A stretch of DNA of 64,000 bases from Actinobacteria bacterium IMCC26207. GTDB lineage: Bacteria > Actinomycetota > Acidimicrobiia > Acidimicrobiales > Microtrichaceae. Position 1 is the first letter of the stretch; the number at the start of each line of letters is the position of its first letter. This document shows positions 46,080-47,631 of the stretch, piece after piece. The notes beneath the pieces were generated by a model. It was not told the DNA's origin, did not search any database, and was given only the letters and a program-made list of their open reading frames with translations. The DNA is taken from assembly GCA_001025035.1 (NCBI GenBank), contig LCZK01000008.1, forward strand, positions 186,001 through 250,000. Reading direction: 5' to 3'. The position numbers and the translations under genes are program-made.

Positions 46080-46205
46080 TCACTTTCCGATTCTGGTCTG
46101 CGCTTCTCTTGGCACCTGCCGACGGGAGCGCAGTTCAAGTTGTAGGCGAAGTTCCCCGTCTTCATCCCCGGGCCAACCGCTGCGCTCGTTCAATCGCGCC
46201 GTCAA
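46080..46205 (-). CDS. Possible 41-residue protein coupled to the transporter gene
   Basis: A TTG overlaps the transporter stop (TTGA) and opens a 41-codon frame rich in Arg, Glu and Leu, with the sequence GWPGDEDGELRLQLELRSRR in the middle. It ends one base from the bL37 stop. The overlap with the upstream stop and the amphipathic composition are suggestive, but there is no known family and the start codon is weak. It may be chance. Confidence 0.25.
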   Translation of the reverse strand: MTARLNERSGWPGDEDGELRLQLELRSRRQVPREAQTRIGK

Positions 46206-46894
46206 TCAAGCGGAGGTCGCGATAGATCCTCTGGGACTGCATAGATCAGCGGGATGCTCACAATCGTGGCCAAGCCTTTCACCACGATGTTCGCCCAGAT
46301 GATCGACACTGCTACTGACCAGGGAAGCGTGCCACCAAAGGCGATGAGCACAAACACGATTGAGTCAATCGGGATTGCGATCGCGTTCGAGGTCAGCACT
46401 CTGCCCCACTGCACCCGATGGCCGAATCGCATGACGAAGCGGTGGTACACCTCGGTGTCCGCGAACTCTGCGATCACTTGTGCCACTACTGAGGCGAGCA
46501 CGATTCTGGTCACGGGATTGAGTACTGGACCAAACCACTCTTGTGCCGGCCCTGTCACCTCGGAGTCAGCCGGCAAGATTGCTGCAAGGTACAACCCCAG
46601 CGCTAACACAATGTTGAAAGCAGCGGCACTCAAAATGATGACCCGAGCAGCCCATCGTCCACCGACCTTGTGGACAAGGTCTCGAAGCGTGAACGTGAGC
46701 GGGTAGGTCAGGGTTCCGGCGTCAATCGAGAAGCTTGCCCAGTCCGGACCTATTCGAAGAATCCTGACGGACATGACGTTCGCCATCAGTGAACAGGCCA
46801 CGTAACCGGCGGCTGCTATCAGCAGCCAAGTGAGTGCACGACGATTGAGATCTACCTCATTTGTCGCCGTGTCGGTCAGGGTCACGGTGGCCAC
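46202..46894 (-). CDS. Queuosine precursor transporter (VUT/YhhQ family)
   Basis: Membrane protein of 230 residues with about six helices, family of YhhQ, which imports preQ0/preQ1. Recognised segments are YVACSLMANVMSVRIL, TYPLTFTLRDLVHKVGG, VASVVAQVIAEFADTEVYHR and SNAIAIPIDSIVFVLIAFGG, the AxxAxFxDTxVY and SNxxxxPxDS motifs being typical. No queuosine synthesis gene is in the window, in line with salvage. GTG at 46894 or GTG at 46885 may be the start; the second lies seven bases from a -10 hexamer on the minus strand. There are only 14 bases to the divergent VOC gene, too few for a preQ1 riboswitch. Confidence 0.9.
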   Translation of the reverse strand: MATVTLTDTATNEVDLNRRALTWLLIAAAGYVACSLMANVMSVRILRIGPDWASFSIDAGTLTYPLTFTLRDLVHKVGGRWAARVIILSAAAFNIVLALGLYLAAILPADSEVTGPAQEWFGPVLNPVTRIVLASVVAQVIAEFADTEVYHRFVMRFGHRVQWGRVLTSNAIAIPIDSIVFVLIAFGGTLPWSVAVSIIWANIVVKGLATIVSIPLIYAVPEDLSRPPLD

Positions 46895-46902
46895 GGTACC
46901 GT
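46893..46902. promoter_or_regulatory. Symmetric -10 element serving two divergent genes
   Basis: ACGGTACCGT is a perfect ten-base palindrome containing TACCGT on both strands. On the plus strand it ends six bases before the VOC ATG (46909); on the minus strand it ends seven bases before a GTG (46885) in frame with the transporter. Neither start has a ribosome site. A shared -10 for two leaderless transcripts explains the arrangement. Confidence 0.5.
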
Positions 46903-46908
46903 TCCGCC

Positions 46909-47631
46909 ATGCCAGCCGACACTTTTGATCCCCTAGAGAAGCCCGCTGTTGCCCGACCCCTTCAGCTTGAACTGCTCAGGCTCGGAGATAGTGCTGCCGC
47001 TTGGAGCGCTGCGGGCTTCTTCGTCTCGGCAGAGGCCACTGTCACACTTGGCCAGACAATCATTCAGTGCACTGGCCAAGGCGAACCCTTTCAGGGCTGG
47101 CGGATTCGGGGCAGGCAGCTTCAGGGGCTCGGTAGCGGCAGGTCGATTCCAGAGCACCCTTCTATCGATGGCCTAAGACTGCTGCCTGCTAGCGACCAAG
47201 GTCATTCGCTCAACTCGGTTGCATCGCAGCCTCACCCCAACGGCATCACATCTATTGACCACATCGTGGTCAGTACGGGTGACTCCGAGCGCAGTATCGC
47301 CGCCTTTGAGTCGGCAGGGTTTGAGGTTCGCGGTAGTCGAAGCACTTCGAGTTATGGGTCGCCGATGCGCCAAACATTCTTTTGGGCAGGCGATGTAATT
47401 GTCGAACTCATGGGTCCCGATCTTGGCGAGGCCACCAGCGAATCCCCTGCGCAGATCTTTGGCTTGGCGCTCGTCGCTGCCGATCTTGATAGCACCGCAG
47501 CGGCACTTGGTGAACTACTCGGTACACCCAAAGCTGCAGTGCAGACCGGACGCCAGATTGCCAGATTGCGGACGAACTCGGTTGGGATCGGGTTGCCCAT
47601 TGCAGTGATGAGCCCGCATCTGTCGAGTTAA
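46909..47631 (+). CDS. VOC superfamily (glyoxalase-like) protein
   Basis: Protein of 240 residues with a C-terminal glyoxalase/VOC domain: TSIDHIVVSTGDSERSIAAF (first metal His), FFWAGDVIVELMGP (Glu ligand) and the second beta-alpha-beta unit from IFGLALVAADLDSTAAAL to VGIGLPIAVMSPH. The first 110 residues form another, weaker copy of the fold (LELLRLGDSAAAWSAAGFFV), with LGQTIIQC in the middle, probably non-metal-binding. It may be a dioxygenase, lyase or resistance protein; nothing further can be said. The ATG at 46909 is favoured by the palindromic -10 just upstream. Confidence 0.82.
   Translation: MPADTFDPLEKPAVARPLQLELLRLGDSAAAWSAAGFFVSAEATVTLGQTIIQCTGQGEPFQGWRIRGRQLQGLGSGRSIPEHPSIDGLRLLPASDQGHSLNSVASQPHPNGITSIDHIVVSTGDSERSIAAFESAGFEVRGSRSTSSYGSPMRQTFFWAGDVIVELMGPDLGEATSESPAQIFGLALVAADLDSTAAALGELLGTPKAAVQTGRQIARLRTNSVGIGLPIAVMSPHLSS

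Follow-up and report, generated by a model that had tools for sequence, protein, structure and literature searches.

Two genes of Actinobacteria bacterium IMCC26207 diverge from start codons that lie so close together that the question arises of how both can be transcribed, and whether one short element could serve as the promoter of each. The genes, which encode a VOC-like protein and a queuosine-precursor transporter, lie in a 64,000-nucleotide stretch of contig LCZK01000008.1 (positions 186,001 to 250,000), hereafter the window, whose numbering is used for the following features.

46909..47631, plus strand: VOC-like gene (Glyoxalase_4 below the cut-off, 20.2 vs 27 bits), presumed leaderless, with a predicted transcription start at 46909
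46202..46885, minus strand: gene of a queuosine-precursor transporter of the VUT family (Vut_1, 5.2e-32; TIGR00697, 86.1 bits vs a cut-off of 50.95 bits), presumed leaderless, with a predicted transcription start at 46885
46893..46902, either strand: shared core ACGGTACCGT, of pattern ANNNTANNNT, read directly from the sequence; two TACCGT −10 boxes overlap by the central TA (46897-46898)
46897..46902, plus strand: −10 box TACCGT of the VOC-like gene, followed by 6 nt (46903-46908) and ATG 46909-46911
46893..46898, minus strand: −10 box TACCGT of the transporter gene, followed by 7 nt (46892-46886) and GTG 46885-46883

The start codons and their shared core

The original prediction placed a TACCGT hexamer on each strand, six to seven bases from ATG 46909 and from GTG 46885, and direct reading of the sequence confirmed both, with gaps of 6 nt to the ATG and 7 nt to the GTG. 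The two starts are 24 bp apart, with 23 bases in between, and the −10 hexamers of the opposite strands overlap at the core (46893-46902), which is the arrangement that characterizes a bidirectional promoter. Each gene also has a TANNNT about 12 bp before its start codon (gaps of 6 and 7 nt), as do leaderless actinobacterial genes. The listed open reading frame of the transporter begins at an in-frame GTG further upstream (46894), which overlaps the box. This start was rejected and 46885 retained as the better one because, at the corresponding place, one relative (G024) has no in-frame start and two others (G015 and G016) have TTG.

In published leaderless genes of Actinobacteria, the promoter signal is described as having the same form, a TANNNT about 12 bp before the start codon with a weak or absent −35 element, and as being frequent (PMC3160421, PMC3898074); in M. 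tuberculosis, the common promoter is reported to be a TANNNT without a conserved −35 (PMC3898074). In the genome of the window (G000, 3.3 Mb in 10 contigs), a home-made hexamer gene caller applied to 1.24 Mb returned 1070 genes. The gap between the end of a TANNNT and the called start was exactly 6 nt in 94 of them, 7 nt in 31 and 8 nt in 25, against a mean background of 5.6 genes at gaps 13-44. Leaderless-type genes are, to judge from this peak at gap 6, favoured in the genome. In the 94 gap-6 genes, none of the forty positions upstream of the hexamer exceeded 0.1 bit, except the two bases that adjoin it, and these genes thus have no clear −35. Only one of the 94 starts with TTG, compared with 165 of the 1070 overall, and the 31 gap-7 genes are too few to judge. 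Peaks at gaps 6, 7 and 8 were also found in relatives (12, 9 and 8 of 191 genes in G023; 5, 4 and 2 of 139 in G005; 15, 4 and 4 of 216 in G028).

We consider it quite likely that the 23 bases between the start codons make up a complete bidirectional promoter from which both messages would be leaderless. The housekeeping sigma factor would read TACCGT on either strand, through hexamers that overlap by their shared TA, and both directions would be used. At any one time, a single RNA polymerase would occupy the region, facing either gene, and would presumably exclude a second one. Transcription would start 7 bases past the box on the plus strand and 8 bases past it on the minus strand, at the first base of ATG 46909 and of GTG 46885, and both transcripts would be translated without a leader. 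For bidirectional promoters of E. coli, polymerases in opposite orientations are reported to be mutually exclusive, and the basal transcription of all five promoters tested there was too low for competition (PMC12825309).

The pattern itself was not enriched in the genome. CAY-N7-ANNNTANNNT-N6-RTG occurred at 2 places in the 3.3 Mb, vs 3 for a backwards control, and long open reading frames on both sides were found only at the VOC/transporter place (240 and 227 aa; the other has 431 and 9 aa). With the four gap combinations of CAY-N6/7-ANNNTANNNT-N6/7-RTG, there were 6 places vs 9 for the control. Two of the 6 have clear genes on both sides, the VOC/transporter locus and C10:548500; L208, L210 and L231 were set aside for having a long open reading frame on one side only, and L232 for its two doubtful short ones (96 and 117 aa). 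The single locus is weak evidence because the hexamers share the central TA and, given the plus box and the minus start, the minus box needs just one more A. What speaks against chance in the sequence is the TANNNT peak at gap 6 across the genome, together with conservation of the element over three genera.

Unbiased samples of divergent pairs gave few such cases. In the G000 sample, 29 divergent pairs have leaderless-type starts on both sides; in 2 of them these starts are 24-25 bp apart, and one of the two is doubtful (C8:97458/97483, gaps 8/6, with the plus start 54 nt from the called start). No shared pair was seen among 50 divergent pairs of G028, where three leaderless-type pairs lie at 60-86 bp, or among 26 of G023 and 32 of G005, in which none lies at 6-39 bp. 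Over 1.91 Mb, the 18-bp register had 3 places, none with two-sided open reading frames, and the 23-bp register had 2, one of them two-sided (VOC/transporter), which are too few to compare. As a separate observation, palindromes with a GGTACC core may be under-represented in G000.

Conservation among relatives and competing readings

Relatives of the VOC gene were found in 25 of 33 family genomes and of the transporter in 16; the two genes are adjacent and divergent in 11 of the 33, the window genome included. G003, where they diverge about 1.6 kb apart, was left out of the 11, and named copies of the same loci were counted once. ANNNTANNNT is retained, with starts 24-25 bp apart, in 9 of the 11 pairs, which belong to three genera. 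The six genomes of genus g1 carry ACGGTACCGT and G024 (g13) carries AACGGTACCGTT; G015 and G016 (g8) read AAGGTAGCTT and AAGGTAGCGT on the VOC strand, in which both −10 boxes are present and the palindrome is lost. The gaps are 7/6 at the shared loci, those of g8 included, and 7/7 in G024. By eye, the five distinct spacers have the four key −10 positions invariant, plus 5 of the other 19 aligned positions. In the remaining two genomes, the adjacent genes do not share a box: in G032, each gene has a leaderless-type start of its own, 108 bp from the other, and G022 has a leaderless-type start on the transporter side only.

The expectation that the element would be kept between both genes in relatives was borne out in 8 of the 10 relatives that have the pair adjacent and divergent. 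As a refinement, the trait conserved across the aligned sequences is the geometry of ANNNTANNNT, with start codons 24-25 bp apart, and not the perfect palindrome, which is absent in g8. The predicted bidirectional promoter with two leaderless messages is supported by the code of the genome (TANNNT-N6-RTG) and by the conservation of the element.

The loss of symmetry also bears on a different reading, in which a dimeric regulator would bind ACGGTACCGT as its operator and the promoters would lie elsewhere. A perfect 10-bp palindrome, extended to 12 bp in G024, is what such a site could look like, but it occurs once in the genome vs 13 times for its backwards control, its symmetry is gone in G015 and G016, which nevertheless keep both −10 boxes, and the neighbouring genes examined, over a few kb, include no gene for a regulator. 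We rejected this reading, which we regard as very unlikely, on the single genome copy and the symmetry loss; neither a conserved dyad nor further sites were found. A single-site operator may be present in genus g1. Since the palindrome is lost in g8 and both boxes are retained, a shared −10 region fits better than an operator.

It is also conceivable, though improbable, that the core works as a promoter in a single direction, probably towards the VOC gene with its gap of 6, and that the transporter is transcribed with a leader from inside the VOC gene, its TACCGT being a by-product of the shared TA. The minus box indeed costs one base once the plus box exists, and gap 7 is rarer than gap 6 (31 vs 94 genes). 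However, all nine shared loci, from three genera, retain the minus-specific A and a transporter start at a distance of 7 nt, even though the letters around them vary. Furthermore, no AGGAG-like sequence was seen by eye on the transporter side of the compared spacers, and a TANNNT at gap 6 or 7 likewise precedes the transporter start in G022 and G032, whose boxes are not shared.

That the core is a chance match of TANNNT on both strands, devoid of function, is the least likely of these readings. The near equality of the bare pattern and its control in G000 and the single base that a second box costs would agree with it, but conservation of the element over three genera amid changed letters speaks against it, as does the recurrence of such a box at the def locus in ten families (best-scoring matches included), described below.

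Two minor observations were made on the relatives. The VOC gene of G009 contains a 15-bp tandem repeat of 8.3 copies (L006, 2006-2129), in line with the two overlapping query matches there. The metagenome-assembled sequences CAMDLX010000009.1 (L127) and CAMDAT010000041.1 (L129) are titled Bifidobacterium breve and encode transporters 98-99% identical to that of the window; these titles look like mislabels.

The peptide deformylase/methyltransferase pair

At C10:548500-548529 of G000 (L233, 1501-1530), two genes diverge from AGACTACCGT with gaps of 7/7, one for a peptide deformylase (Pep_deformylase, 9.8e-48) and the other for a methyltransferase (MTS, 2e-26). A DNA search with this stretch found it in 22 of the 33 family genomes. 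In the order, 143 of 148 genomes matched. Of the best-scoring 30 matches, 26 loci were used, after exclusion of the window genome itself and of three that the family set already contained; the order part of the resulting 48 def loci is thus a biased sample.

The methyltransferase gene is adjacent and divergent in 36 of the 48, and no such neighbour was found in the other 12. The box is shared in 29 of the 36, which represent ten families of the order (22 family and 26 best-scoring loci); the script scored the G030 locus as not shared while its box is visible by eye, so that the count is 29 by script and 30 by eye. Shared loci amount to 18 of 23 in the window's own family (f1) and, among the best-scoring matches, to 11 of 13 in f3, f19, f24, f27, f35, f44, f52, f54 and f57. 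In 24 of the 29, each side has a gap of 6-7, while in the rest the gaps reach 8 or 9; the starts lie 23-27 bp from each other, and the ten-mer comes in seven variants. As these loci were picked out by their shared box, that the four key letters never vary among them is no evidence, and it is the fraction shared that counts as such.

Leaving G030 aside, the six non-shared loci have genes about 42-98 bp apart, with a TANNNT of its own on each side in five. In G023, AGGCTACCGC stands where the box would be, and the gene of the methyltransferase has TACACT 6 nt before a GTG.

Wider occurrence and relation to known promoters

Over the 33 family genomes, the pattern totalled 179 places vs 142 for the control. 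The excess is uneven, being concentrated in genus g15 (54 vs 8), G002 (8 vs 2), G005 (6 vs 0) and G012 (8 vs 2), with none in the six g1 genomes together (33 vs 45) or in G023 (2 vs 12). Open reading frames of at least 100 aa on each side, a count that may include the long chance frames of GC-rich genomes, were found at 23 of 28 places in three of the six g15 genomes (G028 9/12, G029 8/9, G031 6/7), and also in G002 (7/8, the def place being taken from the def survey), G005 (4/6) and G000 (2/6). By length alone, they were found in G001 (2/4), G003 (1/1), G004 (0/1), G006 (2/3) and G012 (5 of 7 checked out of 8). L339 in G005 reached the length with one frame devoid of a coding signature and was left uncounted. 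Five pairs of G028 could be named by Pfam: short-chain dehydrogenase/glyoxalase, IspD/Crp-like regulator, histidine phosphatase/uracil-DNA glycosylase, amidohydrolase/class V aminotransferase, and DUF5317/enoyl-CoA hydratase.

In the studies considered here, bidirectional promoters are described from mapped start sites in E. coli and Salmonella (PMC12825309, PMC10268837). They are defined by divergent starts 7-25 bp apart (PMC10268837), and those based on −10 symmetry have preferred spacings of 18, 10 and 23 bp, 18 bp being the commonest, with small deviations allowed (PMC12825309). The core studied here resembles them in that one −10 region would be read on both strands. By simple arithmetic, sharing of T-12 and A-11 gives a spacing of 23 bp for gaps 6/6 and of 24 bp at the VOC/transporter locus. 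As this register is that of the published 23-bp class, the kind of promoter is known, and the leaderless, conserved form would be a variant of it. It differs in that the start codons would themselves be the start sites, in a register of 23-27 bp kept over genera and, at def, over families; 5 of the 29 shared def loci would have starts 26-27 bp apart, vs the 7-25 bp of the definition (PMC10268837).

The leaderless TANNNT promoters of Actinobacteria are presented as one-way in the published descriptions (PMC3160421, PMC3898074), whereas one core would serve two genes here. The prpD and Rv1129c genes of M. tuberculosis are likewise divergent neighbours with two leaderless messages; the comparison is with their description, which does not say that one −10 box serves both (PMC3898074). 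Among the titles and abstract openings listed for an open-access collection, we found no description of leaderless pairs on one shared −10. What is new is the recurrence of the shared box at other gene pairs, namely def/methyltransferase over the order and further pairs in g15, a sister genus.

The def/methyltransferase pair across the order, the VOC/transporter pair and several g15 pairs lead us to lean slightly towards an old, inherited class of minimal divergons in Acidimicrobiales-like actinobacteria. In such divergons, the ten-base ANNNTANNNT core and start codons 23-27 bp apart would form the whole control region, devoid of a −35, a leader and a ribosome-binding site, and the orientation in which the polymerase lands would decide which gene is expressed. 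If start codons mark start sites, sequence would suffice to recognize shared promoters in uncultured genomes, and comparison would show how old they are. To judge from the def pair, a single shared promoter can survive across many families of an order. Loci with genes further apart (G023, G006, G022, G017 and G173) hint at how a shared promoter may turn into two separate ones and back.

Finally, at one of the G028 pairs (G028:C130:54508-54537, L331), ispD and the gene of the Crp-like regulator diverge from ACTGTACCGT, and the same ten-mer, with gaps of 7/7, is present in G029 and G031.
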